A stretch of DNA of 64,000 bases. It comes from Litchfieldia alkalitelluris (GTDB taxonomy: Bacteria; Bacillota; Bacilli; Bacillales; Salisediminibacteriaceae). The DNA lies in assembly GCF_002153425.1 (NCBI RefSeq), contig NZ_KZ119600.1:3461920-3525919 (forward strand), in the 5' to 3' direction. Position numbers and translations under genes: made by a program. Positions 21,621 through 44,703 of this stretch are shown here, in pieces. Each line of letters starts with the position of its first letter. The stretch's first letter is position 1. The notes under the pieces are model-generated. The model was not told the DNA's origin. It was given only the letters and a program-made list of their open reading frames with translations, and did not search any database.

Positions 21621-21703
21621 GATGCTGCCTCCAATCATTTTGATGTAATGTAATTAGAAGGTGAATACAATCATCTTTAAGTTACATTACATCAAAGCAT
21701 AGT

Positions 21704-26736: not shown

Positions 26737-26782
26737 GTGACAGCCCCTCTCGCTATTTTAAAAGTTCGCTTCCTTCTGTGAA

Positions 26783-26805
26783 AGCACTTTCATTATAGCG
26801 CTTAC
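26783..26805 (-). promoter_or_regulatory. cre-like sequences over the importer -10 region
   Basis: The minus strand reads TGTAAGCGCTATAAT overlapping the -10, then ATGAAAGTGCTTTCA immediately after. The latter is a near-perfect cre palindrome except for the central CG. Their position would allow CcpA to block initiation. Confidence 0.5.
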
Positions 26806-26856
26806 AGGAGACTTTCTTCACCCACCAAACTATAGTTTAGACTTCGAAAAATATAG
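26792..26856 (-). promoter_or_regulatory. importer operon promoter with 21-bp direct-repeat operator
   Basis: Distal box CTATATTTTT (26847-26856) and proximal box CTATAGTTTG (26826-26835) are 21 bp apart. The -10 TATAAT (26792-26797) lies 34 bp from the fifth base of the proximal box. The -35 position (TGAAGA) is poor, as expected of an activator-dependent promoter. The whole unit spans 65 bp, exactly as at 36.8, 41.1 and 43.1 kb. Confidence 0.7.
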
Positions 26857-27228
26857 ATTCCTAAACTAAATATGTATAAAACCTTATAAAACTAGCATTT
26901 TCTGTACAAAAAAAACTTCATTTGTCCAAGAAAAATCACTTGAAACGTGCGAAAAATGTCTAATTTTGTCACTAACCGGTGTCGAATCTGGAATGATTTG
27001 GAATTAAATTTGATAGGTTAATATAGTTTTTCATCGTTTAGTGAGCTTAATCTTTATTTTACTCAGCACATTTAATACATTATTCGATGGATTTCTCACC
27101 TCCAGAAAGTACTATTTTCATATAAAATGATCACGATGATTTTATTAAATCATAAAATTTGATTATGGGCCTTTCAATATGTGAATAATTTTAAAACTTT
27201 GATCATATAGCTTTTATTCTTTAATAGA

Positions 27229-27356
27229 AAGCTCTGTTAAAATGGTAATGTTCATTTTTTGTTACAGGTACACACTTTCACGCAAGGTACAAGTGCGACA
27301 TCCGCTCAACTTTCGCAGTGTCTTCTTTGCCGCGTACGTCTGGTAAGCTTTCCAAA
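27229..27356. repeat. dispersed repeat remnant
   Basis: It starts AGCTCTGTTAAAATGG..TTTTTTGTTACAGGTAC, matching the left end of the element at 11876. It contains a 34-bp block (27274-27307) shared, inverted and with one mismatch, with 63267-63300. No right-hand inverted repeat is visible. Apart from this, the promoter and the terminator, 26737-27391 holds no gene. Confidence 0.6.
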
Positions 27357-27363
27357 TAGAAAA

Positions 27364-27385
27364 GAGATTGGGCAAATGCCCAACC
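27364..27385 (-). terminator. terminator of the two-component operon
   Basis: TTGGGCATTTGCCCAA hairpin followed by TCTCTTTTC on the minus strand, just after the histidine kinase stop. Confidence 0.7.
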
Positions 27386-27391
27386 TCAATT

Positions 27392-29143
27392 TTAATTAAT
27401 ATATTCACGCTCAGATTTTAGTCTAATCTCTACCGTCGTTCCTTTTCCTGGAGTGCTTTTTATACTAAAACCAAAATCTGTCTTATAGTATAGTTTCAAA
27501 CGATAATAAACATTTTTAATACCTATGGATTCTCCCATACTTTCTTCATTCTTTAAGCTATCTAGCATTTTATCTAGCTTGTCTTTTTCAAAACCAGAAC
27601 CATCATCTTGTACAGTAAACACCACTTCATCATTTACTTTCTTTATTTTAATTTGGATGAGTCCCGTATCTTTTACAGATTCTATACCATGAATACTTGC
27701 ATTTTCCACAAACGGAAGAAATGCCATATTCGGGATAAGACTGTCATAGACGTTTTCGTCAATATCAATTGAATACTCTAGCTTATCACCAAACCGGTAC
27801 TTTTGAATTTCAAGAAAACAGAGGATGAGGGTTAGTTCTTCTTTGACGGTTACCCATTCCTTCCCCCAGGTCAAGGAGTTCCTAAATATTTTTGCCATGT
27901 TCTGAATGATCTTAGCTGTTTCCTTTTCCCCTTTAATTAGACTTCTCATTCTAATAGTTTCAAGGGCGTTAAATAAGAAATGTGGATTGATCTGACTCTG
28001 TAGTGCACTTAACTGGGCTTGCTTTTCTTTTAGCTCTAAATCTTTCTTATCAATATTTGCAACATATACTTCATTTATTAGCGTTCTAATCGTTCGAGTC
28101 ATCTTGTTGAATTCGATTGTTAATTCACCTATTTCATCCTTTGCTTCTTGTGAGTCAATTGTTTCAAAATCTTGCTCTTTCATTTTTTTCATATATTTAA
28201 GTATTCTTGCTAGCCTCACATGTAGTGATCTCGATATTAGAATAATGATAATAGTAGGTATTGTAAAATTTAATAATGCAAAAAATAGAATAAATTGGAC
28301 TGATTGATGTAATTCTTCTAGAATGTCAGACTCAGAAATAACCCCTACCATACGCCAACCCTCTATATAACTTTGAGGAAGGACCTTTTCGTCCAACAAA
28401 ATAGTATCTTCATTCAGAGAGATTGAGTTAAATGAAACCGTTTCACTACGCCAATTAATAGAGTAGTCATTTGAGAATTCAATTTCACCTTCATTATTTA
28501 ATAAGTAAACATTTCCCGGGAAGGTAACATTATTAAATATTTGTCTAAGGGACAATGGATTAATATCAATACGAATAAATTTTTCATTAGCACTATATGC
28601 ACGAAAATAATCTAAAGATCGTATAACACTAAATAGGTCCCCCTCTTCCTGGGGATCAGGTTTGACAAAAACCGGGTGTGACCCAGGAGCCGATCCATCA
28701 TACCATCCCTCTTCAAATGCCTCCTCTAATGTACGAATTCCCCCTGCATATATCACAGTCGGGTTGTTCGTATAGTAGGATATATCTTGAATGGAATAAT
28801 ATAGAGGACTATAAACATTATAATGGCTGATGAAATCTTCAAATGCTTCAATGTATTGAATAGAGTTCTCGTAATCAGTGTCCAAAAATTCATACAGCCT
28901 TGTATTGGAATAAAAACCAGCTGAAATCCCCATTGCTTGATCAACAACATTCAAAAATTCATTCGTAATTTGTTCTAGTACTAAATCCACATCGTCCATT
29001 TTTTGATTTTTAATGTTATTGGTCGTTACACTATAAAACGTCACATTTGTAACGACAATCGGAATAAATACACACAATAAATAAAGGATCAGCAGCTTAC
29101 TTCTCAGTTTTAAATTATTAAAAAATCTTATAGGAGATTGCAT
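27392..29143 (-). CDS. YesM-type sensor histidine kinase
   Basis: A 583-aa membrane sensor. One membrane segment at about 15-37 (LLILYLLCVFIPIVVTNVTF), a ~240-residue extracellular Cache-like region, a second segment near 285-306 (FILFFALLNFTIPTIIIILI), a HAMP domain to about 360, then the His_kinase domain with phospho-acceptor His in QINPHFLFNALETIRMRSL near 388. The C-terminal HATPase has NASIHGIESV and QDDGSGFEKDK. It belongs to the LytS/YesM histidine-kinase group typical of oligosaccharide sensing. It follows the response regulator gene by 18 bp. It probably senses xylan fragments, perhaps together with the neighbouring binding lipoprotein. Confidence 0.93.
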   Translation of the reverse strand: MQSPIRFFNNLKLRSKLLILYLLCVFIPIVVTNVTFYSVTTNNIKNQKMDDVDLVLEQITNEFLNVVDQAMGISAGFYSNTRLYEFLDTDYENSIQYIEAFEDFISHYNVYSPLYYSIQDISYYTNNPTVIYAGGIRTLEEAFEEGWYDGSAPGSHPVFVKPDPQEEGDLFSVIRSLDYFRAYSANEKFIRIDINPLSLRQIFNNVTFPGNVYLLNNEGEIEFSNDYSINWRSETVSFNSISLNEDTILLDEKVLPQSYIEGWRMVGVISESDILEELHQSVQFILFFALLNFTIPTIIIILISRSLHVRLARILKYMKKMKEQDFETIDSQEAKDEIGELTIEFNKMTRTIRTLINEVYVANIDKKDLELKEKQAQLSALQSQINPHFLFNALETIRMRSLIKGEKETAKIIQNMAKIFRNSLTWGKEWVTVKEELTLILCFLEIQKYRFGDKLEYSIDIDENVYDSLIPNMAFLPFVENASIHGIESVKDTGLIQIKIKKVNDEVVFTVQDDGSGFEKDKLDKMLDSLKNEESMGESIGIKNVYYRLKLYYKTDFGFSIKSTPGKGTTVEIRLKSEREYIN

Positions 29144-29161
29144 CGGAATAATCCTTTGTTT

Positions 29162-30742
29162 TTATTTTTTTAGTAATTCGTTTCGATATTCTGTTGGTGT
29201 TAATTTATTTATTTTTTCGAACTGGGTCACAAAGTAGTCTGTACTACCAAATCCAACTTTTTCAGCGACTTCGTACACTCGCATGTCCGTCTGCCTCAAC
29301 AACCTTCTCGCTTCATCAATTCTCAGTTGAAGTAAATATTCCTTAAAGTACATGCCAAAGGTCTTCTTAAATAACTGCCCCATATACACAGGGTTCATAT
29401 AGTACTTACTTGCAATACTCTTCAAACTAATATTCTCATGAAAGTTCTTTTCCATATAAGATTTAACTTTATAAATATCGCCTTTCATGTTTTCTTTTCG
29501 TAATTCTTGAATATATGTGGCACTATCCAGGATAAATGCAGTGAAAAGTTTTCTTAGCTCTCCGTATGTCAAATTATACTTCTCCCAGTGCATCATAGGT
29601 GTGAGGGAGGACAATTCTTGTTCATTCCCTTCCATAGTATTAATTCTTTCAATAACACCATGTATGCAACGATTGATCGTCGTACGAATCGCCTTAGGAG
29701 CAAAACTTTTATCTTGAAACTCCTTAAATATTTTTTCTATTGTTTCGTTAACTTCATCCTTGCTGTTTTCCTCTAATTGCTCCATAAATGAAACGAATAG
29801 CTCATTCCGCAATTCATTATAGATTACTGGAATAACCTTCACGTCTTCATAACATATAGAAGATTGATCTAATAAAACATATTTAAATCCTCGAATGCTA
29901 TTTGCCGTTTCATAGGAATCCTTCAAATATTTAAGATTATCTATTTTTTTACCAGCAAATGCTGTTATTATTTTATTACTTTTTCGTGATGCCTCTTTCG
30001 CCAGCTTCTCCCCTAATGGAACAATCTCGCCATCGAATTTTTTCAAATCATCTGATGCGATGAGCAACCCAATCGCGTTGTCTTGCTGCTCGTACATCAT
30101 TAAATGATCATCATTACTAGTGATCCTATACATAGTATTTTTGATCACTTCTTTGAGGTCTTCTCCATCGCCATCTTCACTTAATCCAGCATCAATGTTG
30201 AGGTTATTTATCTCTAATAATAAGTAATGATAGAAATCACTTTTTTCCACTTTTAAAGCCTTTGACCATTCAAACATATCCTCATCGTCTACATTTCCCT
30301 CTAAGGATTGGACAAATATTTGATTAACCATATACTTTTTTCTCGTAGTATTCTCGCGCTTTTCCCCATCTAGCTTTTCCTTCAGCTTTTGAAGTGTCTC
30401 TTCCAATTCTTCCTGATCTATCGGCTTTAAAATAAAGTCTAATACCCCAAACCTGACTGCTTTTTGAGCGTAGGAAAAATCATTATAGCCACTTACAATA
30501 ATGAATTTTTGATCACTATTTAAATTTTTATGCACATTTTTAATTAACTCAAGTCCATCAACAACAGGCATTCTAATATCTGTTATGACAAGGTCTGGAG
30601 AATGCTCTTCAATAAGCTCAAATGCATCTTCACCATTCCCAGCTTCTGCAATTACTTCAAATCCAAACTCTTCCCAGCTAATTAAGCTTAATAAGCCTTG
30701 TCGTACAAAAACCTCGTCGTCCACTAATAAAACTTTATACAT
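29162..30742 (-). CDS. YesN-type response regulator with AraC DNA-binding domain
   Basis: A 526-aa regulator. Receiver domain 1-120 with VLLVDDEVFVRQG, phospho-acceptor Asp55 in DLVITDIRMPVVDG, and Lys in DFILKPIDQEE. A linker of about 300 residues follows. The C-terminal AraC-type double helix-turn-helix is at about 425-525 (SLKSIASKYYMNPVYMGQLF, RRLLRQTDMRVYEVAEKVGF, DYFVTQFEKINKLTPTEYR). AraC-family proteins commonly bind direct repeats two helical turns apart. Exactly such a 21-bp repeat occurs at four promoters of this cluster, so this is the best candidate for their activator. RBS AAGGGAG precedes the ATG. Confidence 0.93.
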   Translation of the reverse strand: MYKVLLVDDEVFVRQGLLSLISWEEFGFEVIAEAGNGEDAFELIEEHSPDLVITDIRMPVVDGLELIKNVHKNLNSDQKFIIVSGYNDFSYAQKAVRFGVLDFILKPIDQEELEETLQKLKEKLDGEKRENTTRKKYMVNQIFVQSLEGNVDDEDMFEWSKALKVEKSDFYHYLLLEINNLNIDAGLSEDGDGEDLKEVIKNTMYRITSNDDHLMMYEQQDNAIGLLIASDDLKKFDGEIVPLGEKLAKEASRKSNKIITAFAGKKIDNLKYLKDSYETANSIRGFKYVLLDQSSICYEDVKVIPVIYNELRNELFVSFMEQLEENSKDEVNETIEKIFKEFQDKSFAPKAIRTTINRCIHGVIERINTMEGNEQELSSLTPMMHWEKYNLTYGELRKLFTAFILDSATYIQELRKENMKGDIYKVKSYMEKNFHENISLKSIASKYYMNPVYMGQLFKKTFGMYFKEYLLQLRIDEARRLLRQTDMRVYEVAEKVGFGSTDYFVTQFEKINKLTPTEYRNELLKK

Positions 30743-31235
30743 CAGCCCACTCCCTTATATTGATGTATTTATATGACAATTTCCCCTATAAAAAATAAGT
30801 CCGTGTCCATATAAAATTCCTATATTATCCCCCTATTATACAACATGAGCCTCTCTCATTTCACCTAATATGGCGAAGGGTGTCGAAGAGGCGTGTGGAT
30901 TACTTAATTGTTTATTATAACGGTGGACTTATTGATATTAAGATATGTGGCGAGAGTAGGTGGGGTGTTTTGTGAGTTTGTTGATGAAAAAATTGGGGTC
31001 ATATATATATACGGTTATTCCTAGGTGGTTGGGACAGTGCCACAAGTAAGGAAGACGCGACGAAGTAGCTTCGGTGAAAGGCCCTAGGGTGAAGTACACC
31101 TTGAATTCGATTCAGATAGTATATTGTTGGAAAACTCTCATCGAGCACTTGGAATAAGGATTACTACTATTAATGATAAAGTCATACATCACAAATGGCT
31201 TAATTGATTCGTGAATATTGAGAAGAAAATGAAAA
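30743..31235. other. 546-bp gap without a gene; GC-richer island
   Basis: The left end holds the two-component promoter region. About 31018-31100 is richer in GC than its surroundings (CCTAGG at both borders, GACGCGACGAAG, AGCTTCGG) and may be a decayed dispersed repeat; similarity to 27.3 kb (GAAGAC followed by GCGA) is slight. I see no open frame or recognised RNA. Confidence 0.4.
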
Positions 31236-31237
31236 AA

Positions 31238-31282
31238 GAAGAAGCTCCCAAAGCCTGCTTGGCATTGGAAGCTTCCATTTAA
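31238..31282 (-). terminator. terminator of the wall-anchored xylanase gene
   Basis: GGAAGCTTCCAATGCC pairs with GGGAGCTTC and is followed by a T-rich tail (TTCTTTTTTC) on the minus strand. Confidence 0.75.
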
Positions 31283-31288
31283 TAATTA

Positions 31289-34200
31289 TTAGTTAATCAG
31301 TTTTTCACGACGATTAACGATTACTAAGAAGATTGCTCCAGCAAGTAAAGTAAGGAAACCAATCAACAGCATAGTAAAGTTGTTCGTTGCTGTGTCAGGA
31401 AGTTTCTCTCCGTCTTTCTCATCTTTGGCTGTTTCTTTGTCATCTTTAGGAGCATCTTTCTTTTCTTCTTCACCATCTTTTGAGTCTTTTTCGAGTTCTT
31501 CAATTAATTTCTTTAGTGCTGCTACTTCATCACTTAATTCTTGATTAGATTCTTCAAGTGATTTTAGTTGAGCTTCTAACTCAGAAACCCTAGTTTTCAA
31601 CTCATCTAATTCAGCATCGGAAGTATTTTTTATATCTTTAATTAAATTTCTCAACTCGTCAATTTGTTTTTCGAGTTCTTTAACCGGGTCTACTGGGTCT
31701 ACTGGATCTACCGGATCTACTGGATCTACTGGATCTACTGGATCTACTGGATCTACTGGATCTACTGGATCTGGATCTACTGGATCTACCGGATCTACTG
31801 GATCTGGATCTACTGGATCTGGATCTACTGGATCTACCGGATCTACTGGATCTACCGGATCTACTGGATCTACTGGATCTGGATCTACTGGGGCCACTGT
31901 AAAGACTCCATATGTTGAGAATTCAGTCACACTTAGACGAATAACATGTCTCTCTTCATCCATTGTTCCTTCTTCACGATACTCCCAAACATTATCACCT
32001 AGATAGTAGTAGATAGCAGCCTCCTCAAATTCTGGGTTATAAGCTAACTCTAAAGTAAAGTCGCCTGTGTAGTCTTCATATCCCTCAGGGAATGTTAGAT
32101 TAACAGTTATTACTTCACCAGCAAGCTTAAGAACTACATCATCAGTTGTTGTATAGTTTTCACTGTCAAACGCTTCAACTTCAATCCTTGTACCTAGTGG
32201 TAAATCAGCTGGCATTGTGACTGATGAATTTTTATCTTTTACAACCACCTTCTGTGAAGGGAATACAGTAACTTCATTACCAACTTCTATCTCAACAGGA
32301 TTTGATCCTAGTAAAGCCAATAATTGCTCTACTAATGCTCTCAAAGCTAAAAGTTTGTTGTTCAACCTCTCAATCTCTTCATTAAGATCAGATATATCGC
32401 CTTCCAAATCAACTTTTAGTTTTGCAATATCTTCTTCTAATTTATTTACTTGGGAAGTTAGTTCACTTATTTCATCATGATGTGATTCACTATCTTCTTC
32501 AAGTACAGAAATTCTTCTGTTTAACTCTTCTACTAACTGCTGTAGCTCATAGATTTGAATCTCTTCATCTGTTGCTTCTAAAACAGCGAATGTACTAAAG
32601 TGAGACGTTTTAGCAACAATAACTCCTTTTACTTCATCATATTCGGAGTCACCAATAATTTCCCACTTTTTAGTGCCTTCATTGTAATAGAACGCTCGTA
32701 AGTTACTAACTTTAGTATCATCACTAATAACCACTGGTAACTCAAGAGTAACTTTTTCATTAAACTTAGTAGTATCAACTCCATCAAGTTCAAACTTATA
32801 AATTGAACTCTTAGCTCTTTCACCATTTACTACTTCACTCACTCCACGAGTGGTTACCGTTAAGATAACGTTCTCATCTTCTGTGTCTACCTTTTCAAAT
32901 ACACTAATTGGGAAGACGATATTTACAGACTTATCATTTATTTTAGAAGTAAAATTCAATGATGTTGATTCAGCAATTCGTGGGTTAAACTTCACAGGCT
33001 CTTCTGTAATAACTATTTTTTCATCAGTATACCCACTTAAGTCAACAACACCATTTACTGGTTCATATGCTCTACCTCTAAGAGTAAGATTACCAAATAC
33101 AGATGGATCAGACCACCCCATACCAGTTGTATCACTCCAAGCCATAGCCCCTCTTCTTCCACCAACCTCTGCATCATTTACTTGGAAGTCAAATCCAAGA
33201 ACATGTCCATTAACTGGTTCGATTGCATAAAGCGGGATTTTCATTTCAACAACGTAACTAGTTCCGTTAACATTTGTTGCTGTTTTAACATCTGTATAAG
33301 GACCACCATCACCATGTGTAAACACATTATTAAAGTTCACTCGATATTGCCCAAATCCATCATTCTGAATATAACTTGGAAGTTTTGTATTTTTTTGATC
33401 TAAGAATACTTCAACTGAATCTTGTTCCCAAGGATTAGAATTAGAGTCCACTAACTGTGTAGCTGCTACCTCCAATAACAAGTATAAAAAGTCTTCATCC
33501 CATAACGCACGAGTATTAGCTTCAGCAGTTTGCCATGCCTGTTGCGCACGATTGGCTGTCATGACAGGAGCTTCATTCCATACATCATCAATTTCACCAT
33601 TAATTGTTGGCGCTTGATCTGTATAAATAGCTTGACCTTGTCTAGGTGGAATTACAGTTTCTTCGTACTCTTCTAGGAAACCAATCGGATCAACTACAGC
33701 ATAGAAAGCTGGCTTTGCTTGAAGTCTACGGTCAAAAATTAGAGGGTTTTGCTCACCTCTCCAACTATTTGCGTCACTAATTCCCCAAAACGTTACACGT
33801 GAGATATGCTCACTTCGATCCAAATAAATTTCAAAAAGTCTTGCATAAATCCAAGCTTGCTGGTTAGCTTCATCTTCGGTTAATTGATGATTGTCGCCCG
33901 CTGTAACATCTAATTCTGTTACACCAATCTCAACACCTAGGCTAATAAAACGATCCATTGAAAGCGCAACATTATCTGGATTTAGATTAATGTTGTAATG
34001 CGCCTGCATACCTACACCTTCAATTAGAAGGTCATCTGTTTCGTTTTTCTCTTGATAATTTTCGTTTATTTCTTTTACCATGTAGTAAATAATCTGAGCT
34101 TTCGATTGGATATGATCATTGTAATCATTATAGAAAAGAGTTACATCTAGATCTAATTCTTCTTTCCAATGTTTAGTTATTTCAAAGATCATCTGAACAT

Positions 34201-36727
34201 ACTCAGGTCCGAATACTTGAAGTGCTCTCGTATTACGTAAATGTTCTCTCCACTCTGTATATGGCTTACTATTATCTACAACAATTACTTCATTTAATAC
34301 GTCCCATGATATTAACTCGCCGTCATATTTTGCATAGTTTCTCATAACGGCTTCAATGTAATCTTCTAAATTTTTGAGGGCATCTTCTTCGCTTATTCCT
34401 TGTGGGAATAACCTATCATAGTTTGATTGTGAATGCCAAGCAATCGCATGACCATGGACTTTATAACCTTCTTCGATTGCTTTCTCAACAAACTCATTTT
34501 GGCTATCAAAGTTTAAGTTTCCATCAGCATCATAGAGATACTGAGGTTTCATAGCATTCTCAGCAGTCACTAAATTGAAATGCTTATCAAGTAACTCTAA
34601 ATTTACCCCTTCAAAATCACTCATGTTAACTGCACTACCAATTAAGAAATGTTCAGCATAAACATCTTTAATTGAAGGAAGCTCAGGTTGTATTTCAATC
34701 GGAGCTGATTCCAATTTGACAAAACTAAAATCATCAATGTAAAACGATTCATTAGCTCTCGGAGTTTCTAGGTATATAGAGATATTTCCTCCACCAGAAC
34801 TGCGGAATGTATAAGTACCTTTTAGATTTACCCACCCATCAGCAGTTACTGTTGCATTAGTAATTTCCGGATAACTTGCATTATCACCAGAACCCATTTG
34901 CACTTTTAATTGAACGTTAGAACTTGCAGGTTCTTTCATTTTCACCCATACGGATACTTCATACTCACTACCTAAATCAACATAATCAAATACATCGATC
35001 ATCGGTCCGTTCCATTCTTGAGTTCGATTTTCTGTAAGTAATGAGTAGTTACCATCCTCAGTACGGTTAACCCCTTCAACGATTGTTAACTCTTCTACTC
35101 CGCCACGACCTACAAAACCAGCATTAAACTCGTCTGATTCTTCATCTCGATATTCAGGCTTTTCGAAAGTGATTTTTTCCATTACCTGAGCTGGTGCATC
35201 ATCTAAATCTTCAGGTGGTGCAACCATTTCAACTGTTATTGAATCAAGGTAATAACCTGAAGTAACATTACTAGATTCAAAATATACGTCAATTGAATCT
35301 TCACCGAGTCTTGTTTGATATTCACCAGTGAATTCAGTCCAATCGCCAGTAGTAATTTCTTTTTCTGCGAATGTAGACCATTCACCATTGTCTAGCGTCG
35401 CTTTAAATGTTTCATTACCATCAAAATTAATGATCTTAACATACCCAGTAATTCGGTACGTTGCAGTAGGGTATATACCTTCACTTAAAGTAACAATTGT
35501 TCCATGCCAATCTACTGTACGTCCTGTTACTTTTAAACTATAGTCACCGTCGTAACTAGCTTCGCTCGAACGCTGGGCTCTTGCATCCCCACGGTCACGG
35601 AACCCATGTGCATTTTCTTCGAAATCAAATGACGCAATAGTTTGTGGTTCAAATGGTTCTTCTGGAGTTTCTGGTGCTCCTGAGTCTTCACCATCAACTA
35701 AAACTTCAACTTTAATACTCAATACATAATATTGAAGTCCAGCAGCATTCCATGTTTGAAATCGGATCTGGTTTTCTTGTTCATTCTCTAATAGACCATT
35801 AAAAGTAACTTCAACTATTTCGCCTGCTACAATTGACTTGTGAACATCAATTTCTTGATTACTGCCGGCATTCGTGGTTAATTGGTAATTCCCATCAGAA
35901 TCTGTGTCAGTATAGAGCTCCGCAGTAATTCTATATGTTTCTCCATATTCTATACCTGCATCACTATAAGATAAAGTTGGAGAGTTCCATTCTCCATCTG
36001 GACGATTACTCATAAAAAAGCCATTATAAGTTTGGCCATCAATTGTAACCTCTTCTACATCTCCAGTACCTCCAGCATCTGTTCTTACATTATGATCATT
36101 TGAACTAAAATCTGTTTCGTAAACTGTTCTATGAGTTGGCCTTTCTTCACCTTCACCTTCACTTTCATCATCAGCTAAAACTTCAACCTTAATACTCAAT
36201 ACATAATATTGAAGTCCAGCAGCATTCCATGTTTGAAATCGGATCTGGTTTTCTTGTTCATTCTCTAATTTACCATTAAAAGTAACTTCAACTATTTCGC
36301 CTGCCACAATTGACTTGTGAACATCAATTTCTTGATTACTGCCGGCATTCGTGGTTAATTGGTAATTCCCATCAGAATCTGTGTCAGTATAGAGCTCCGC
36401 AGTAATTCTATATGTTTCTCCATATTCTATACCTGCATCACTATAAGATAAAGTTGGAGAGTTCCATTCTCCATCTGGACGATTACTCATAAAAAAGCCA
36501 TTATAAGTTTGGCCATCAATTGTAACCTCTTCTACATCTCCAGTACCTCCAGCATCTGTTCTTACATTATGATCATTTGAACTAAAATCTGTTTCATAAA
36601 CTGTTTGATATGATTGACCTACTTCATCCGCACTAGCAGTTGCCGAGAAGTTAAACAACCCTGGTGGTAAAACTAGCATAATAACTAAAAGTTTAATAAT
36701 GAATGCTTTTAAACGTCGTTTCCTCAA
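31289..36727 (-). CDS. giant modular GH10 xylanase with LPXTG-type cell-wall anchor
   Basis: An 1812-aa secreted enzyme. Signal peptide 1-32. Two nearly identical ~140-aa modules (about 42-182 and 201-341; DNA unit 477 bp). Two CBM22-like modules (about 362-504 and 514-672). GH10 domain about 681-1012 with acid/base Glu in [12 protein letters not shown] and nucleophile Glu in [15 protein letters not shown]9-like module about 1029-1215 ([14 protein letters not shown]). A beta-rich domain, a coiled coil (about 1390-1476), a second related beta domain, a VDP/DP repeat (about 1612-1682), a second coiled coil, and the sorting signal LPDTA at 1776 followed by a membrane segment and the basic tail NRREKLIN. 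It should be displayed on the cell wall through a sortase. The promoter has the shared 65-bp layout. Confidence 0.93.
31681..31893. repeat. in-frame VDP minisatellite within the xylanase gene
   Basis: About two dozen copies of a 9-base unit (GTAGATCCA on the minus strand, coding VDP), some followed by an extra 6 bases (DP). Every unit length is a multiple of three, so gain or loss of units would alter spacer length without a frameshift. Confidence 0.9.
35703..36597. repeat. 477-bp tandem duplication coding two xylan-binding-type modules
   Basis: 35703-36120 and 36180-36597 are almost identical at DNA level with an offset of 477 bp (159 codons). Near-identity at third codon positions means a recent duplication or continuing gene conversion. 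Confidence 0.9.
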
Positions 36728-36813
36728 TTTACTAGCCTCCTATGTAATATATTTTGTGAAAATATAAGCAAAAACTACTAATCCCTCCTTCCTAAATATC
36801 GACATCTATCACA

Positions 36814-36878
36814 ACTATATAAAACGCTTTCATAACTAGAAACCCTATAAACTTTATATCAAACCTCATAAACTATAG
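36814..36878 (-). promoter_or_regulatory. promoter of the wall-anchored xylanase with 21-bp direct-repeat operator
   Basis: Boxes CTATAGTTTA (36869-36878) and ATAAAGTTTA (36848-36857) are 21 bp apart, with -10 TATAGT (36814-36819) 34 bp from the proximal box reference base. Cre-like sequences lie over the -10 (ATGAAAGCGTTTTAT) and just upstream (TTGTAAACGCTTAAC). The other sequence in 36728-37081 is leader and terminator. Confidence 0.7.
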
Positions 36879-37007
36879 TTAGTTAAGCGTTTACAAGTCT
36901 GAACATTTTAAAAAGTGTTTTTGTATTGTAGTATTAGTAGTCTATTATCAGATAGTACTATTTTACTGTTTAAAATAGTACTTTCTAAATATACTAAATT
37001 CTTCATA

Positions 37008-37054
37008 TAAAAAAGGTACCTCCAAAGTTCTATATACTTTGAAGATACCTTTAT
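37008..37054 (-). terminator. terminator of the two-GH10 xylanase gene
   Basis: AAAGGTATCTTCAAAGT and ACTTTGGAGGTACCTTT pair, followed by TTTTAT on the minus strand. Confidence 0.85.
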
Positions 37055-37081
37055 AAATTCTTCAGTTCAGCTATTTATCTT

Positions 37082-40000
37082 TTATTTTCTTTGTCCAGGA
37101 GGTCCGTCAGGATGTTTTCCTGGAGGACCTTCCCCTCTATGTCCAGGAGGTCCATCTGGGTGTTTTCCTGGTGGTCCATCATCCCTATGTCCCGGAGGTC
37201 CATCTGGGTGACGTCCAGGAGGTCCATTATATTCGGAGTCATCATCTTCATCAACTGAATAAACAAGGGTCAGATTACCGAATACGGAAGGATCGCTCCA
37301 GCCACTTCCTTGGAGGTCATTCCACGTTGCAACACTTCGACGGGTTCCATCTTCTGCATCATTGATTTGAAGGTCGAAACCAATTTCCGTGTTGTTCTCT
37401 GGCGTGATTTCAGTGAAAGGTATTTTTATCTCCACTGTATATCCTTCGCCTGATTCATGAATGTGGGTTGCAGATTCAAATCCTTCCCCAATACTTCCTG
37501 GGTTAAAACTAGTTTCATTATCAAAGTTCACTCTGTATTGTCCATGGCCGTCTTCGTAGAATACTGATTTAGAATTTAGTTGATCTAAGAACACTTCTAC
37601 AGAGTCTTGCTCATGGGCCTCAGGAGAGGATTTATCGAGCTCAGGATCATTTACTTCAACGAGCACATACAAGTTTTCATAATCCCAAAGGACTCTACCT
37701 TCACCAGTTGCTCCTTCCCATGCAGACTGATAACGGTTAATTGGTAAAACTGGAGCATCGTTCCACACATCGTCTATTTCACCATCAATAACTGGTGTTC
37801 CAAAGACACCATTACCTTCTCTAGTTGGATCTATTTCGTCCTCGTCATAATTCTCAATATATGTTTCAGGATCGATGACAGCATAATATGCTTCTTTTGC
37901 TTGCATATTGTGATCGAACAAAGTAGGATTTCTATCCCCTCTCCAACTTTGTGAGTCTGCTAATCCCCAGAATGTTACACGGGAGATATGGTCAGCATGC
38001 TCTTTATAAAGTTCGAACAACTGAGCAAACAGGTAAGCTTGCGCCCTCTCCTCTTGCTCCGTCAATTCGTCATCTGAACCAGCCATGATATCCAATTCAG
38101 TAACTCCAATTTCTACTCCTAGTGAAATGAAACGCTCTAACGACATTCTTACTCTTTCAGCAACATTCGACTCATCGATAGAGTAATGACCTTGCATGCC
38201 GACACCACCGATGAGAAGTTCTCCATCGTTTTCTGCAGCATACCTTTCATTAATATCCTTTACCATATAATAAATCACTTGTGCTTTGTCTTGTACATGA
38301 TCATTGTAGTCATTGTAATAGAGTGTGATATCCAAATCATTTTCATCAATGACACGTTTTGTAATTCGGAAAGCCTGTTCTACATAATCATCACCGATTG
38401 CGCGTAACCAACCAGTGTCACGTAATGAAGCTTGCCAATCTTCTAAGTTTGAACTATTCACTACGATTGCTTCATTTACAACATCCCACGACGTGATAGA
38501 ATCGCCATAATTCAGAATGTTTGTTTCTATATGCTCTTCCATATTGGCAAGGGCCTCTTCACGGCTTAGAGGTTCACCATCTTCGTCCTGCCACAACCAA
38601 TCACGTGACTGATTATGCCAAACAAGGACGTGTCCGTGAATATCAAAACCTTCCTCAAGCGCTTGATCTACTAATGTATTTTGATCAGCAAAATCAAATT
38701 CACCATCATCATTATAAGCGTATTCTGGCTTCATCGCATTTTCAGCCGTAACAAGATTATAATGCAGATTAAGAAGGTCTAGACTTACTCCTTCAAAGGT
38801 AAAGTCAGAGATAATATTCCCGATCATGAAGTAGTCTTCATATACTTCTTTGATTGGTGTTAAATCTCTTTCGATATCATCAGGGTCTGGATCACTTTCC
38901 TCATACCCTTCAATAATTGCCCAATAAGCAGGTTTCGATTGTAAGTTATGGTCAAATACAAATGGTGCATTTGTACGACCGCTCACTGGGAAGTCATGTA
39001 ACCAAGTATGGTCATCTCCAATACCCCAGAATACTACACTACTAATGTAATCTTCTAATCTTCTAAACTCGTTAAATAGATCTTCATATCGATCTGCCTG
39101 CGTTTCAAAGACTTCATCTGGAATATTATCGAAACCATCATAGTTTTGGTTGTCATTTGTGTAAATGCTTACATCTAATTCCGTAATTTCATTATCTAAA
39201 CCAATTTCACCGAACATTTCAATAGAATCTGTAATTTGTTCCATCGGTGGATACTCAATATTAATATGTGTTTGATGTCCAATCCCATCAATTAACCCAT
39301 CTTCAACTAAATCCAATTCATGGATCATGTCAAAAATGTAGTCTCTCTTTTGAGGACTATGGGTACTATAATCATTATAATAGAGCTTCCCACTAGCGTT
39401 ATGAGTTTCTAATTCTCTTTTCGTGATTTCAAAAGCATGGCGAATGAAATCTGTACCAGTGATTAGATAGTACTCACTTCTACGGTACCCGTCATCTTCA
39501 TGAGCAACGATAACTTCATTGACAACATCCCAAGAATCGATGCGATCATGATATCTACCAACAACTGCAACAATATGATCCTCAATTCGATCCAAAAGCA
39601 ATTGTTTGTTCGCTTCAATATTATCTGGATCAGTAACTTCTCCATTCACTACCATCGGGTTACCTTCTGCATCTTCAAACATCCAGTTAGGTGATTGACT
39701 ATGCCACACCAACGTATGGAATCTAGTTTTCATACCGTTTTCTTCGGCAAAGTCTAGCATTGCATCAGCTCTTGACCAGCTAAATTGGCCTTCTTCTGGT
39801 TGAATCGCTTCTGGCTTCATCACATTTTCAGCCACAAGCATATTATAATGCTTCTTCAGCATTTCACCATGACGTCCAAACATTTGGTCACGTTCAATTG
39901 CAGCTCCAATATCGAAGTAATCTGCAAACACTTCTCTTAGCTCAGGAATGTCTTCAATTTCCTCAGAAACTTGTGCTTCTGCCTTGAAATCATCTAAGTA

Positions 40001-41044
40001 GAATGAAACTCCAGAATCTTGGTCTTCGTCATACGGTTCTTCTACATAAAAGAATAAGTCCGTTACACCAGCGGTTAGTGTGTAAGTCCCTTCTAATAAC
40101 ACCCATTCCTCATCCGTAACTACTCGTGGCGTTACAACAGGTGGCCAATAGTTAGTACCATCAGAATCTGTTTCAGCTCTTGAAACTTGTAGTTCTGTCG
40201 GCTCTTCACCCTCAGCTAACTTCACCCAAACACTAATGTCATAGGTAAAACCTTCATGCATATTATCTAGAAAATCTAACATCGCACTGTAAAAAGAGCC
40301 TTGTCGATTTTCAATTAATAGGCTGTACTCACTATCTCGTCCAGTTCCTGGATTTACTGACAATTCTTCTGGACCTTCACGGGGCTCCCAGCCTTGTAAT
40401 GTACCATCTTCAAAATCAGTAAAGACTGCAATTTCTTCCCCATCTGGTATTTCATTATCATTTGAGGAAGTGCTCTTTGTAATTAATATATCGCCTAGAT
40501 AAAAATCAACTTCTTGTCCTTCCTCATTTGACTGAACACGAAGCGCAATATCTTCAGAAGCATCAACTGTATATTCACCACTAAGGGTAAAAGCCTCACC
40601 AGCAACATAGTCTGCTGACTCATAAAACCCTTCATAACTTTCTATATTTTGAAATAATGCTTGTCCTCCCTCAGGTACCTCTACATCTTCGTCGATATAC
40701 CCTTTGACAGTAACTGTATACGTATTACCGTCTTCCATCCCTACTGCACTAAATGGAATATCTACTCCATGCCAACCATCACTTCTCCCAGTAACGTGAA
40801 TTCCTTGTCCATTATCATTCCCATCAAAAATCAAATCAGAAACATGGTCCAATTGTGCAGGTCCACTAGGTTCTACGATACCTGTACCTTCGTCAAAACT
40901 CTCATGGTAAACGGTTTCAATATTTTCGTCGGAACTATCACCTTCAGCTAAAGCATTAGTCTCAAAGTGAAATAAACCTGGTGGTAAAACTAGCATAATT
41001 ACTAACAGCTTAATCAAAAATGACTTTACGTGCTTATTCCTCAT
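37082..41044 (-). CDS. secreted xylanase with two GH10 catalytic domains and a basic GPPG-repeat tail
   Basis: A 1320-aa protein. Signal peptide 1-32, almost the same as in the wall-anchored xylanase ([16 protein letters not shown]). Two CBM22-like modules (about 44-192 and 207-355). GH10 domain 1 (about 361-713) has catalytic regions SWDVVNEVIVAHED and NEITELDVSIYTN. GH10 domain 2 (about 725-1060) has SWDVVNEAIVVNSS and GVTELDIMAGSDD. Both domains keep both Glu residues. A CBM9-like module (about 1076-1258) follows. The tail from about 1262 repeats GPPG(R/K/H)HPD six times and is Pro/Gly-rich and basic, possibly for wall or polyanion adhesion. There is no LPXTG motif. The start site carries an AraR-like box beside the -10. 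Confidence 0.93.
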   Translation of the reverse strand: MRNKHVKSFLIKLLVIMLVLPPGLFHFETNALAEGDSSDENIETVYHESFDEGTGIVEPSGPAQLDHVSDLIFDGNDNGQGIHVTGRSDGWHGVDIPFSAVGMEDGNTYTVTVKGYIDEDVEVPEGGQALFQNIESYEGFYESADYVAGEAFTLSGEYTVDASEDIALRVQSNEEGQEVDFYLGDILITKSTSSNDNEIPDGEEIAVFTDFEDGTLQGWEPREGPEELSVNPGTGRDSEYSLLIENRQGSFYSAMLDFLDNMHEGFTYDISVWVKLAEGEEPTELQVSRAETDSDGTNYWPPVVTPRVVTDEEWVLLEGTYTLTAGVTDLFFYVEEPYDEDQDSGVSFYLDDFKAEAQVSEEIEDIPELREVFADYFDIGAAIERDQMFGRHGEMLKKHYNMLVAENVMKPEAIQPEEGQFSWSRADAMLDFAEENGMKTRFHTLVWHSQSPNWMFEDAEGNPMVVNGEVTDPDNIEANKQLLLDRIEDHIVAVVGRYHDRIDSWDVVNEVIVAHEDDGYRRSEYYLITGTDFIRHAFEITKRELETHNASGKLYYNDYSTHSPQKRDYIFDMIHELDLVEDGLIDGIGHQTHINIEYPPMEQITDSIEMFGEIGLDNEITELDVSIYTNDNQNYDGFDNIPDEVFETQADRYEDLFNEFRRLEDYISSVVFWGIGDDHTWLHDFPVSGRTNAPFVFDHNLQSKPAYWAIIEGYEESDPDPDDIERDLTPIKEVYEDYFMIGNIISDFTFEGVSLDLLNLHYNLVTAENAMKPEYAYNDDGEFDFADQNTLVDQALEEGFDIHGHVLVWHNQSRDWLWQDEDGEPLSREEALANMEEHIETNILNYGDSITSWDVVNEAIVVNSSNLEDWQASLRDTGWLRAIGDDYVEQAFRITKRVIDENDLDITLYYNDYNDHVQDKAQVIYYMVKDINERYAAENDGELLIGGVGMQGHYSIDESNVAERVRMSLERFISLGVEIGVTELDIMAGSDDELTEQEERAQAYLFAQLFELYKEHADHISRVTFWGLADSQSWRGDRNPTLFDHNMQAKEAYYAVIDPETYIENYDEDEIDPTREGNGVFGTPVIDGEIDDVWNDAPVLPINRYQSAWEGATGEGRVLWDYENLYVLVEVNDPELDKSSPEAHEQDSVEVFLDQLNSKSVFYEDGHGQYRVNFDNETSFNPGSIGEGFESATHIHESGEGYTVEIKIPFTEITPENNTEIGFDLQINDAEDGTRRSVATWNDLQGSGWSDPSVFGNLTLVYSVDEDDDSEYNGPPGRHPDGPPGHRDDGPPGKHPDGPPGHRGEGPPGKHPDGPPGQRK

Positions 41045-41119
41045 TTACAAACCTCCTGTGTGTATTTGAGTCATAAATCTATGAAGCTTCTATTTCTACC
41101 CTCCTCCCTTGAACAGACA

Positions 41120-41131
41120 TTGTACGTACAA
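41120..41131. promoter_or_regulatory. AraR-like box at the transcription start of the two-GH10 xylanase
   Basis: TTGTACGTACAA is a perfect 12-bp palindrome matching the centre of the AraR box. It abuts the -10 (41131-41136) on its downstream side, where a bound repressor would block the polymerase. Confidence 0.6.
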
Positions 41132-41195
41132 CTATATATAACATTACGTCTTTTATAAACCTAAAAAACTTTATGTCAACCATTACAAACTAAAG
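41131..41195 (-). promoter_or_regulatory. promoter of the two-GH10 xylanase with 21-bp direct-repeat operator
   Basis: Boxes CTTTAGTTTG (41186-41195) and ATAAAGTTTT (41165-41174) are 21 bp apart, with -10 TATAGT (41131-41136) 34 bp from the proximal reference base. A cre-like site ATGTAAGCGTTTTAA (one mismatch) lies just upstream at about 41200-41214. Confidence 0.7.
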
Positions 41196-41389
41196 ATAAT
41201 TAAAACGCTTACATTTTTATGGTTATATCGTATTTTGCACTATTATCCAGTAAATATCACTAATATAATACTTTTCTCACACCATGACCAAAGTATTATA
41301 TTGTGACTGAAATTTGAACATTTCGACCATTTACAACAAGATACCCATAAACTCCCCTATTTTTTGGTACTTTTTTCATAGGATAAACG

Positions 41390-41424
41390 TACAAGTTAAC
41401 TACAATATACAGTGTTAACTTGTA
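41390..41424. promoter_or_regulatory. inverted repeat, possible operator
   Basis: TACAAGTTAAC (41390-41400) and GTTAACTTGTA (41414-41424) are perfect 11-bp inverted arms with a 13-bp spacer. No T run follows, so a terminator is unlikely. It lies about 340 bp upstream of the xylanase start. The remainder of 41225-41526 shows no gene. Confidence 0.4.
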
Positions 41425-41528
41425 TGGAAACTGATCAAATACATAGTGAATTAGTCCTTGAAGTCCCATAAGTAAAAAGTACTCCCTCTAAAATTGTCAC
41501 GATGACAGACGCCTTAATTAATTTTCAC

Positions 41529-41560
41529 AAAAAAAGACCTAGGGATTTCACCCTAGGTCT
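41529..41560 (-). terminator. terminator of the DUF624 gene
   Basis: AGACCTAGGGTGAAATCCCT AGGTCT hairpin followed by TTTTTTT on the minus strand. Confidence 0.9.
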
Positions 41561-41587
41561 GATCATGCATGATTATTTCATTTTCAT

Positions 41588-42241
41588 TTAGTTTTCCTCA
41601 GAATTACCAGCATTCGCCATCTCAATCTTCTCTTTTTTCCTATCAATTCGGTTGAATGACAAGTATGCTGCCCACATTATCAAGAACCCAACTAAACTCG
41701 GTCCGAAGAATGGAATGATTCCTGGAATTACATATAGGATATAAACTGTTAATGCTATGCTAATAATGAGGGAAAGGATCGCTAATGGATTCACTACCCC
41801 TACTATAAACGCCGTTTTAATGTATTGCATGAGTTTTAAATCAAAATGAACATATACTGGAAAAATATAAAGGAGCGTAATCACATAGACAAATAGCCCT
41901 GTGTACCAGCCAATTGACATTACTGTATGTTGCACACCCTCGATTACTCCTAAATAGTGATAGTTAAAAAAGAGGATATAGCCTAAAACTGCAAAGATAA
42001 TTCCTAGAATGTTTACTTTCAGAAAATCCTTCTTTAGAGAACCAATATATGTTTTAAAAATACTAATTTCCGTATCACCCATTAACCATTTTCTAAAAAC
42101 GGTTAGCATTGCTACTGTAGCTGGAATTACCCCTAGAAAGAAAAGTCCCAGGGCAGTTGTTAGTAGCCACAGCAGATTAACATAAGCTAATCTCCATATC
42201 CATTCAGTCGTACGATAAAATTTTCCACCCATCCAGCTCAT
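41588..42241 (-). CDS. DUF624 (YesL-family) membrane protein
   Basis: A 217-aa protein with about five membrane segments, starting MSWMGGKFYRTTEWIWRLAYVNLLWLL, the typical opening of DUF624/YesL proteins. The FRKWLMGDTEISIFKTYIGSLKKDF loop is also typical. The end is a charged cytoplasmic tail. Family members sit in carbohydrate ABC importer and YesMN operons; their biochemical role is unknown. Here it follows the small lipoprotein gene by about 50 bp. RBS AAGGTGAT. Confidence 0.88.
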   Translation of the reverse strand: MSWMGGKFYRTTEWIWRLAYVNLLWLLTTALGLFFLGVIPATVAMLTVFRKWLMGDTEISIFKTYIGSLKKDFLKVNILGIIFAVLGYILFFNYHYLGVIEGVQHTVMSIGWYTGLFVYVITLLYIFPVYVHFDLKLMQYIKTAFIVGVVNPLAILSLIISIALTVYILYVIPGIIPFFGPSLVGFLIMWAAYLSFNRIDRKKEKIEMANAGNSEEN

Positions 42242-42291
42242 TTATATCACCTTTCATTTACAAGAGATCATCCAAAGTAATTAGAAGAATT

Positions 42292-42843
42292 TTAAATAAA
42301 CTCTTTTAGTAGTTTAATACCTATTTCTTTATGTGGGCTTGTTTGAACGACAACAGCCATTAAATTTGATGAAAAAGAAAGCCCCATATCTTGAACTAAG
42401 GTCGAGTCATTATCTAGTGGAATAGCATACAAATGATGTTTTCCTGTATCCTCATCTTGCATGATGTATTCATCATAAGATGGTGTATCAGGTAAATCGT
42501 CAATTAAATCATCTAATGGCGTTAAACCATAAGGGTCCAATATAACATGCATCAAAGCCTCGTCCACAATAAAGATATCCACTTCTCTCTCAACAATAGC
42601 AATTGTGAGCATGTCATGGGAAACTTGAGATATTCGCGTATTAAAGGCTAAGTCCCCTACCAAATCATCTCCAAGAATCTCCCTGAAGTAAGGTTCAAAG
42701 GAATCCTCATATCTCGGTGGCACATCTGCTAAAAACATTACATTCACTTGTGAACTATCATGATGCCCTTCTGGATCAAGACTACATGCTGTGAATGCCA
42801 ATATACTTACGGATATAATAAACATTTTTAATATCGTTCTCAT
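42292..42843 (-). CDS. small lipoprotein, possibly a shortened solute-binding protein
   Basis: A 183-aa lipoprotein with signal MRTILKMFIISVSILAFTA and lipobox Cys20. The mature part (VNVMFLADVPPRYEDSFEPY, MLTIAIVEREVDIFIVDEAL, DPYGLTPLDDLIDDLPDTPS, YAIPLDNDSTLVQDMGL) reads like the first lobe of a family-1 binding protein, but it is far shorter than the 400-570 residues expected. It may be an accessory sensor lipoprotein. It precedes the DUF624 gene, and both may belong to the same regulon as the importer. Function is inferred only. Confidence 0.75.
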   Translation of the reverse strand: MRTILKMFIISVSILAFTACSLDPEGHHDSSQVNVMFLADVPPRYEDSFEPYFREILGDDLVGDLAFNTRISQVSHDMLTIAIVEREVDIFIVDEALMHVILDPYGLTPLDDLIDDLPDTPSYDEYIMQDEDTGKHHLYAIPLDNDSTLVQDMGLSFSSNLMAVVVQTSPHKEIGIKLLKEFI

Positions 42844-42878
42844 GATTCAACCAACCCTTCACGCTTGAGCGGTATTTT

Positions 42879-42970
42879 TTGAAAGCGCTTAATATAAAAA
42901 CAAGTTAAGATATAAAAACACCTACTATCTTAACATGAATTTCCTATAAGAAAAAAGTGTCAAACTATAG
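42879..42970 (-). promoter_or_regulatory. degenerate member of the two-box promoter class, with cre-like site
   Basis: A CTATAGTTTG box (42961-42970) has TAAGAT (42927-42932) at the same 34-bp distance seen at the four strong promoters. The distal box (AATAGTTTTG) is 18 rather than 21 bp away. TTGAAAGCGCTTAAT (42879-42893) is cre-like. Confidence 0.45.
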
Positions 42971-43092
42971 AGAATACCAAAACTATTTAATATGTATTCC
43001 CTAACCTATGAGTGTTTTTGCAGGTTGGTCAAACTCCAAGACCTAAACCTGCACAACACTCACACCAGCGTACTACTACCAAAGTAAACATA

Positions 43093-43157
43093 CTATAGTT
43101 TTCCACGGTTGATCTTTAGTTTGGTTCATATGACTATTTTTAAATATTTGATATAAT
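43093..43157 (+). promoter_or_regulatory. xynB promoter with 21-bp direct-repeat operator
   Basis: Boxes CTATAGTTTT (43093-43102) and CTTTAGTTTG (43114-43123) are 21 bp apart, and -10 TATAAT (43152-43157) lies 34 bp from the proximal reference base. No usable -35 is seen. Total span is 65 bp, as at the other three promoters, but on the opposite strand. Confidence 0.72.
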
Positions 43158-43185: not shown

Positions 43186-44703
43186 ATGGAAAAAGTAACC
43201 ATTCTGCAGCAAGCAGAAGCAGCGTTTAGGGACAATTGGAAGTTTTGCATTGGAACTGGTAGACTGGGTCTTGCTTTACAGAAGGAATACATTGACCATT
43301 TGAAGCTCATACAAGAGGATATTCATTTTGACTATATACGCGGTCATGGCTTACTGCATGATGACATTGGCATATATCGTGAATTAACCTTAGAAGATGG
43401 CTCTGTACAGCCATTCTATAATTTCACTTATATCGATCGGATTTTTGACACGTATATGGAATTGGGAATTCGACCTTTCATTGAATTTGGTTTCATGCCA
43501 AGGCTACTAGCTTCTAGCGATGAAACTGTCTTTAGTTGGAACGGTAATGTTACTCCTCCAAATGATTATGACAAATGGTACGATCTTATCCAGGCAGTAG
43601 TGAGTCACTTCATTGAGAGATACGGCTTGGAAGAAGTTCTGAAGTGGCCATTCGAAGTATGGAATGAACCTAATTTAACTAACTTCTGGAAGGACGCAGA
43701 CAAAGAAGAATACTTTAAGCTATACAAGATTACTGCTATTGCAGTTAAAGATGTTCACCCTGATTTACAAGTCGGTGGCCCGGCCATTTCCGGAGGGGCA
43801 GATCATTGGATTAAAGACTTTCTTGATTTTTGCGAAAATGAAAGCGCTCCCGTAGATTTCGTAACAAGACATATGTATGCGTCAAATAAGGCGAAGAAGG
43901 TCACACCTGAGCTGTGTTATCAAGATTTATTTGAAAACACTATGATGCTTGATGAGTTAAAAACTGTTCGGGAAATGATTAACGCGTCACCATTCCCTGA
44001 CTTGCCGTTTCATATCACTGAATATAATACGTCATACAGTCCAATCAATCCAGTTCACGACACACCATTAAATGCTGCATATCTAGCAAGGACTTTAAGT
44101 GAGGCTGGAGATTATGTCGATTCATTCTCTTACTGGACCTTCAGTGATGTTTTCGAGGAGACAGATGTTCCAAAAGCACAATTCCACGGCGGATTTGGTT
44201 TGATAGCACTCAACGGCATTTATAAACCTACCTATCACCTATTTTCGTTTTTCAATAAATTAGGTAGTGAGCAGTTGCACCGTGACGAGAATATGCTTGT
44301 AACTAGACGTGAAGATGGCTCTATCGCCATTGCACTCTGGAATCTGGTCATGGACAAAGGAGAAGGCTTTGAGAAAGAGTTCGAGTTAGACCTCCCTGTT
44401 CAATTTAAAGATGTATTTTTAAAGCGTCAAACCATTGATGAGGATCATGCAAACCCATGGAATGTTTGGAAACAGATGGGACGACCTAGATTCCCTGACA
44501 AAACACAAGTGGCAACGTTAAAGGATATGGCCCAACCGCTTCGTAGAACAGCACGATTAGCAAGTAATAATGGACGGTTAAAGCTATCCTTTACAATAAC
44601 GAAAAACGAAGTCAGCCTTGTTGAACTTATCCCAGTCAAAGACGAAACATCAACTTATATCGGAATAGACGATAGTCTCATTCCATCTTATTCAAGAGAC
44701 TAA
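43186..44703 (+). CDS. xynB: GH39 beta-xylosidase
   Basis: A 505-aa family-39 beta-xylosidase that releases xylose from the non-reducing end of xylo-oligosaccharides. Seen: [19 protein letters not shown], acid/base Glu in [18 protein letters not shown] near residue 162, [10 protein letters not shown], nucleophile Glu in [15 protein letters not shown] near 277, and [12 protein letters not shown]. The length is that of Geobacillus XynB1. There is no signal peptide, so it acts on imported oligomers. RBS AAAAGGAGG precedes the ATG. It is the first plus-strand gene of the region and is followed by the GH8 gene after 147 bp. Confidence 0.95.

Follow-up and report, generated by a model that had tools for sequence, protein, structure and literature searches.

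The window analysed here is a 64,000-nt stretch of contig NZ_KZ119600.1 from Litchfieldia alkalitelluris (genome size 4.88 Mb). It contains a xylan-degradation cluster in which four promoters carry the same 65-bp module, a candidate operator made of two boxes in direct repeat followed by a -10 hexamer. The four modules lie as follows:

26792..26856, minus strand: module S1, promoter of a solute-binding protein gene (xynE-like); boxes at 26848-26856 and 26827-26835, -10 TATAAT at 26792-26797
36814..36878, minus strand: module S2, promoter of the GH10 xylanase gene 31289-36727; boxes at 36870-36878 and 36849-36857, -10 TATAGT at 36814-36819
41131..41195, minus strand: module S3, promoter of the double-GH10 xylanase gene 37082-41044; boxes at 41187-41195 and 41166-41174, -10 TATAGT at 41131-41136
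43093..43157, plus strand: module S4, promoter of the GH39 gene 43186-44703, with a GH8 gene next; boxes at 43093-43101 and 43114-43122, -10 TATAAT at 43152-43157

Counting offsets from the first base of box 1 along each module's own strand, box 1 (CTWTAGTTT-like) occupies offsets 0-8, box 2 offsets 21-29 and the -10 hexamer offsets 59-64 in all four modules. The coordinates, strands and geometry given for these promoters by a first-pass annotation of the same DNA thus hold for each of the four 65-mers. In S1, box 1 reads CTATATTTT and box 2 reads CTATAGTTT, a perfect match. The deviating base of S1 box 1 is position 5, which is free in half-site 1 across the 51 sites collected from this and related loci.

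The genes of the cluster include a two-component system and the transporter and enzyme genes that follow the modules:

29162..30742, minus strand: XynC-like response regulator of the YesN type, whose DNA-binding domain is AraC-type; it is proposed to bind the module (domain search and co-occurrence)
27392..29143, minus strand: sensor histidine kinase adjoining the regulator, its proposed partner (His_kinase and HATPase_c, with HAMP just under the curated cut-off; synteny)
25033..26736, minus strand: solute-binding protein (XynE-like), first gene after S1 (domain search; 53% identity over the match in locus L159)
23939..24925, minus strand: probable ABC transporter permease behind S1 (translation, by eye)
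22997..23926, minus strand: probable ABC transporter permease behind S1 (translation, by eye)
21704..22705, minus strand: GH10 xylanase, no signal peptide by eye, co-directional behind S1 (domain search; membership of the S1 transcript is presumed)
19548..21638, minus strand: GH67 alpha-glucuronidase, co-directional behind S1 (domain search; membership of the S1 transcript likewise presumed)
31289..36727, minus strand: GH10 xylanase behind S2, multidomain, also carrying CBM_4_9 and CBM9_1; secreted by eye (domain search)
37082..41044, minus strand: xylanase behind S3 that has two GH10 stretches together with CBM_4_9 and CBM9_1; secreted by eye (domain search)
43186..44703, plus strand: GH39 glycosidase behind S4 (domain search)
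44851..45996, plus strand: GH8 enzyme, co-directional behind S4 (domain search)

The regulator (526 aa) combines a Response_reg domain at residues 4-117 with HTH_18 at 444-521 and HTH_AraC in two stretches. This N-terminal receiver with a C-terminal AraC-type double helix-turn-helix is the make-up of a YesN-type regulator, and the AraC response regulator that the first-pass annotation had placed inside the cluster is indeed encoded there.

Within the genome, the module is specific to this cluster. We searched with the pattern CTWTAGTTT-N12-MTWWAGTTT-N29-TATART and used the same pattern read backwards as a control. Three places match exactly and one with a single mismatch, all of them in the cluster; none has two mismatches, and three other places have three. 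A composition model predicts 0.0019 sites per genome at up to one mismatch, 0.048 at up to two and 0.76 at up to three. The genome scan for the motif plus TATAAT that had been suggested earlier returns the four modules alone at up to one mismatch, in one cluster, and the matches at up to two mismatches are still only these four. A looser pattern, CTWTAGTTT-N11..13-TWWAGTTT, gave three matches in the genome, again all in the cluster, and none for its control. We also scored the window with a matrix built from nine sites of four sister genomes, the window sites being excluded. The four modules rank first to fourth (41.6, 24.8, 24.0 and 19.9 bits) and the next place reaches 14.5 bits; the best of 50 dinucleotide shuffles scored 19.3 bits, and the weakest module is barely higher.

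Such rarity, with four sites per 4.88 Mb and a single cluster, is difficult to reconcile with the view that the module has no dedicated binding protein and is just an ordinary A/T-rich promoter or a duplicated repeat; we consider this explanation extremely improbable. It would fit the A/T-rich boxes, as well as the pair S2 and S3, whose cores are identical at 44 of 65 positions and which precede genes of one family, both GH10 xylanases with N-termini that look alike by eye. The flanks are dissimilar, however: local alignment of the module flanks stays below the best of 200 shuffles in all six pairs. In distant loci the boxes are kept and the spacers vary, and the module is not found where the regulator is absent. 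The earlier view that the modules are not simple duplicates is therefore upheld by the flanks, with the qualification that S2 and S3 may share an old common origin.

The distribution of the module was compared with that of the regulator at increasing distance. Five of 35 family genomes encode a regulator ortholog at E<=1e-60, and the module (up to two mismatches) occurs in those same five genomes, with 13 sites that each lie within about 13 kb of the regulator gene; none of the 30 family genomes lacking the ortholog contains a module at up to two mismatches. For a class-wide sample of 398 genomes, we applied a regulator cut-off of E<=1e-90 and a longer pattern derived from the promoter that follows the kinase gene, allowing up to three mismatches. 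The regulator was found in 21 of the 398 genomes and the longer pattern in six, all within those 21 and at the regulator locus, and the backward control of the longer pattern had no match in any of the 398. In P. pabuli (genome G061, contig L083), one of these six, the gene behind the module encodes a GH10 xylanase, not a solute-binding protein.

When named genomes were searched with 13 aligned regulators as the query, 80 loci were returned. Nineteen of them encode regulators of about 37-45% identity and come from Lederbergia, Neobacillus, Anoxybacillus, Paenibacillus, Cohnella, Thermobacillus and one 'Bacillus sp.' strain; the other 61, at 32% identity or less, served as paralog controls. With a matrix of 13 sites from the genus, a score of at least 20 bits is reached in 23 of 34 ortholog loci (22 of 33 once a duplicate is removed) and in none of the 61 paralog loci; the best score exceeds each of 10 shuffles in 31 of the 34 ortholog loci and in 11 of the 61 paralog loci. 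The duplicate arises since L063 and L083 are one contig; L063 is included in the 34 ortholog loci and excluded from the counts of spacing, -10, synteny and kinase-anchored loci. In the stretch behind the kinase gene, tested against 200 base shuffles each, the module is kept at p<=0.01 in 29 of 35 loci, with Geobacillus-type loci among them, and at p<=0.05 in 31 of 35. Because the module co-occurs with orthologs of the response regulator 29162-30742 and was not found where these are absent or beside paralogs, the comparison supports a link between the module and this regulator.

The same contrast bears on a different local regulator. The window encodes a ROK-family protein with a MarR-like part (52700-53977), a xylose repressor XylR candidate near xylose isomerase-like and FGGY kinase genes, and XylR operators contain AGTTTG too. 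Operators of XylR are inverted repeats, whereas the module has its boxes in direct repeat ahead of the -10, and a XylR consensus has no match in the window at up to three mismatches. Since the module also separates response-regulator orthologs from paralogs, it is very unlikely to be the operator of XylR or of another local regulator.

The geometry of the module is rigid across related loci. When half-site pairs were counted at 10 of 13 letters with no spacing imposed, 34 pairs in 38 ortholog loci lay 21 bp apart, and any other spacing between 5 and 60 occurred at most three times. In the 61 paralog loci, a spacing of 21 occurred at most once and the commonest spacing was 22 (n=4). The direct repeat two helical turns apart that had been read from four promoters is thus borne out as a distinct peak. 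Over the 51 sites the half-site consensus is approximately CTWWANTTT, three free bases and RRGT, giving half-sites of 16-17 bp, about CTWWANTTTNNNRRGT, arranged head to tail. Half-site 2 abuts the place of a -35 element, and the -10 begins 38 bp after the start of half-site 2. Although the -10 lies outside the scoring matrix, 27 of the 36 sites outside the training set have TATAAT at 5/6 or better at offset 59, compared with at most four at any other offset from 42 to 77. Among the 31 loci with a module behind the kinase gene, the best -10 at offsets 57-61 falls on 59 in 29 loci and on 60 in two. A search for a -35 element (TTGACA at 5/6 or better, spacer 16-18) found none in the 51 sites, in agreement with the earlier remark that no good -35 exists, though 16 of the 51 have a 4/6 match where about six would be expected at random. 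The module therefore has the layout of a class II activator site, with head-to-tail half-sites about 21 bp apart, the proximal one at the -35 place and a fixed distance to the -10.

Taken together, the module is very probably the operator and core promoter of a XynC-type two-component activator, with transporter, GH10, GH39 and GH8 genes as targets. A broader version of this reading, in which XynC-type regulators across Bacilli would generally use the module as their operator, is one that we favour with less assurance. In that version the rigid layout would replace the -35 element from Geobacillus-type and Paenibacillus loci to the present one, and the regulon would take in secreted xylanases, GH39 and GH8 enzymes in addition to the transporter.

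Several observations weigh against the assignment. The five module-bearing family genomes belong to one genus and are hence not independent events, and the longer pattern at up to three mismatches is missing from 15 of the 21 regulator-bearing class genomes. L081, whose regulator is a 41% ortholog with no adjacent kinase, scores 2.9 bits; it stands outside the 35 kinase-anchored loci. Four of those 35 loci (L059, L072, L078 and L088) have no module in the stretch behind the kinase gene, although in L072 and L078 it is present elsewhere in the locus. Sites before other targets can be weak, namely L079:7646 with 15.3 bits, L046:13702 with 17.6 and L073:2039 with 18.1. The matrices and the half-site consensus were drawn from the same family of loci, and beyond the cluster the genome was searched by pattern only, without a matrix. 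Moreover, the backward control has two matches at up to two mismatches in the own genome, and across the 35 family genomes at this level it has four, compared with 13 real sites. The composition model is thus too low on chance at two mismatches, and the case for the four sites rests on the level of up to one mismatch. Finally, a transcription start based on the -10 would put half-site 1 upstream of the XynC footprint reported for Geobacillus (about -53 to +34).

That footprint comes from Geobacillus stearothermophilus T-6, where a 2007 study by Shulami et al. is reported to show XynC binding and activating xynE, with direct repeats at the xynE promoter; the footprint at xynE reportedly spans about -53 to +34 and contains GAAA-like repeats. 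It raises the alternative that the regulator binds, with half-site 2 alone activating and half-site 1 auxiliary, or that extra downstream half-sites join. The reported footprint starts near -53, about at half-site 2, and runs to +34, and a lone half-site-2-like box of 15.5 bits precedes the transketolase gene of the window. Set against this, most loci preserve the pair of half-sites with its 21-bp spacing, and in the 51 sites, which were chosen by a two-half-site matrix, conservation is roughly equal for half-site 1 and half-site 2. We regard this alternative as unlikely, if clearly less so than the other explanations weighed above.

The T-6 system nonetheless offers the closest comparison. 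The xylanase of locus L159 matches PDB 1hiz over 377 residues; as we take 1hiz to be the Geobacillus T-6 xylanase, L159 is treated as T-6-like. Gene order is conserved between the window and L159, the regulator and kinase genes coming immediately ahead of the transporter genes, with 39% identity for the regulator, 41% for the kinase and 53% for the solute-binding protein, and the xynE-like gene of L159 is preceded by a module with its -10 at offset 59. Across 40 ortholog loci, a full-length kinase match lies beside the regulator in 39 and a solute-binding protein match in 36. Given this homology and the module in L159, the window system is, judged by its genes, XynDC-like. Like XynDC-XynEFG of T-6, the Geobacillus-type loci L158 and L159 combine regulator, kinase and solute-binding protein, with the module before the xynE-like gene and the -10 at offset 59. 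Unlike the reported XynC footprint, the module consists of two half-sites spaced by 21 bp at a fixed distance from the -10, and its targets also include GH10, GH39 and GH8 genes. On that account, the XynC-xynE pair would be known already; what is newly added is the present definition of the half-sites, together with their fixed position and a broader range of targets. In both Geobacillus and Paenibacillus, XynDC is described as the two-component system next to XynEFG (PMC4194401, PMC10269863).

Comparable layouts occur in other AraC-type systems. At araI1-araI2, AraC of Escherichia coli occupies two 17-bp half-sites, head to tail and 21 bp apart, of which the second overlaps the -35. The module shares with it the tandem half-sites spaced by 21 bp and the position of the second at the -35 region. 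In contrast, AraC is a one-component, sugar-binding regulator with no kinase, and the letters of the half-sites differ. Caldicellulosiruptor bescii represents a distant lineage. For its AraC-type regulators, including three of five two-component ones, tandem-repeat sites are predicted upstream of promoter elements, sought with a 21- or 32-bp periodicity and read as sites of activators (PMC8579813). As with BxgRS, these regulators lie beside CUT1 transporters and have tandem activator-type sites before the promoter; the genes are otherwise different, and the likeness drawn here is one of layout (PMC8579813). XydR of Clostridium cellulolyticum is an AraC-type response regulator of xylan-degradation genes whose effector domain shifts DNA upstream of two targets; short common sequences are listed for it, and no single defined operator (PMC3572039).

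The first-pass annotation had not known of an operator of this form for such regulators. This is not supported, given the tandem sites predicted in C. bescii for AraC-type regulators, including two-component ones (PMC8579813). Our search of the open literature found no recognised account of this operator for XynC-type regulators, a result that covers the sources in part and is no claim of absence from print. The kind of operator is already known, and the module is a new, well-defined example of it. The comparison greatly strengthens the original observation; the assignment to the regulator is probably right, and the claim of novelty was too strong.

From the layout and the gene content we infer how signal, phosphorylation, binding and activation would be connected. 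The kinase 27392-29143 would sense extracellular xylan fragments and phosphorylate the regulator 29162-30742, which would then bind the tandem half-sites as a dimer through its AraC-type domains, with one half-site per protein and two helix-turn-helix units each. The CTWWA and RRGT blocks are about one turn apart, which would fit the two helix-turn-helix units of one protein. Tandem half-sites with the second at the -35 suit a class II dimer of the AraC type, as known from AraC itself. The bound regulator would accordingly be expected to recruit sigma-A polymerase, by class II activation, to a promoter without a good -35. Its predicted targets are transporter genes of the xylo-oligosaccharide type, secreted GH10 xylanases and the GH39 and GH8 enzymes.

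The range of targets recurs in related loci. Among 18 other genes listed behind modules, the 15 that were scanned comprise nine GH10, four GH8 and two GH39 genes, and the remaining three are two lipoprotein genes and the regulator gene of Paenibacillus glycanilyticus locus L090. In a sister genome, a lipoprotein gene and a GH39 gene are separated by two divergent modules placed back to back (L049:6745-6752). At L090:9740, the regulator gene itself is preceded by a module-like site (18.5 bits), a hint of autoregulation in P. glycanilyticus. In the window, no place in the corresponding stretch 30743-31288 scores above -2.3 bits with the sister-genome matrix.

Many promoters behind the kinase gene carry a further element on the -10, resembling a cre site (consensus WTGNNARCGNWWWCAW). 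A match with at most one mismatch is found at offset 63 or 64 in 22 of the 51 sites and is perfect in two (L158 and L159); the background rate is 0.00026 per base. As far as the downstream genes were assigned, twenty-one of the 22 sites precede genes for solute-binding proteins, and one (L083) precedes a GH10 gene. None of the four window modules is among these 22 sites. The cre-like matches noted in the window are:

26778..26793, strand not assigned: cre-like element at the end of the S1 -10, two mismatches, by eye
41199..41214, strand not assigned: cre-like (CcpA) site beside S3, one mismatch
41173-41188: cre-like match inside S3, one mismatch

On this pattern, CcpA would bind at the -10 of many such promoters and add glucose repression to the control by the regulator; alternatively, the regulator itself may make an additional contact at this element.

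Soil Bacilli encode many YesN-type regulators; in most family-f20 genomes that had a match, a loose regulator search returned 191 to 269 candidates. To our knowledge, few of them have a defined operator. Here, one regulator is linked by comparison to one operator of fixed geometry and to a list of targets, so that the regulon could then be read in new genomes. The arrangement suggests that secreted xylanases and an oligosaccharide importer obey one extracellular sensor. Should the module prove to be the general XynC-type operator, it would provide a worked key to the operators of many YesN-type regulators.

Other candidates in the window fared less well. A weaker fifth member of the set, proposed at 42927-42970, fails as a site: box 2 matches poorly, and at -5.8 bits the stretch is outscored by 242 places in the window. 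The gene that it would serve is the following:

42292-42843, minus strand: 183-aa lipoprotein-like gene beside a DUF624 gene, no Pfam match

In one sister genome, the counterpart of this gene (40% identity) does have a good module (L049:6752, 33 bits); in another, a module of 23.7 bits (L048:6244) belongs to a lipoprotein gene of similar appearance by eye. The 12-bp palindrome AAACTATAGTTT in S1 was considered as a general inverted-repeat signal and rejected, as it occurs in only five of the 51 sites, all from this genus. Upstream of the transketolase gene 7223-9271, a single CTATAGTTTGTAGGGTT half-site lies at 9347-9368 on the minus strand, and the rest of the module is weak there. Judged as a full module, this site (9368, minus strand) scores 15.5 and 14.1 bits with the two matrices, within the shuffle range of up to 19.3 bits, and is retained only as a lead. 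Adjoining the transketolase gene and an aldose-epimerase gene is a further regulator (9647-10762, minus strand), in which weak NCBIfam matches indicate a GntR-type N-terminal part and a LacI/GalR-type ligand domain.

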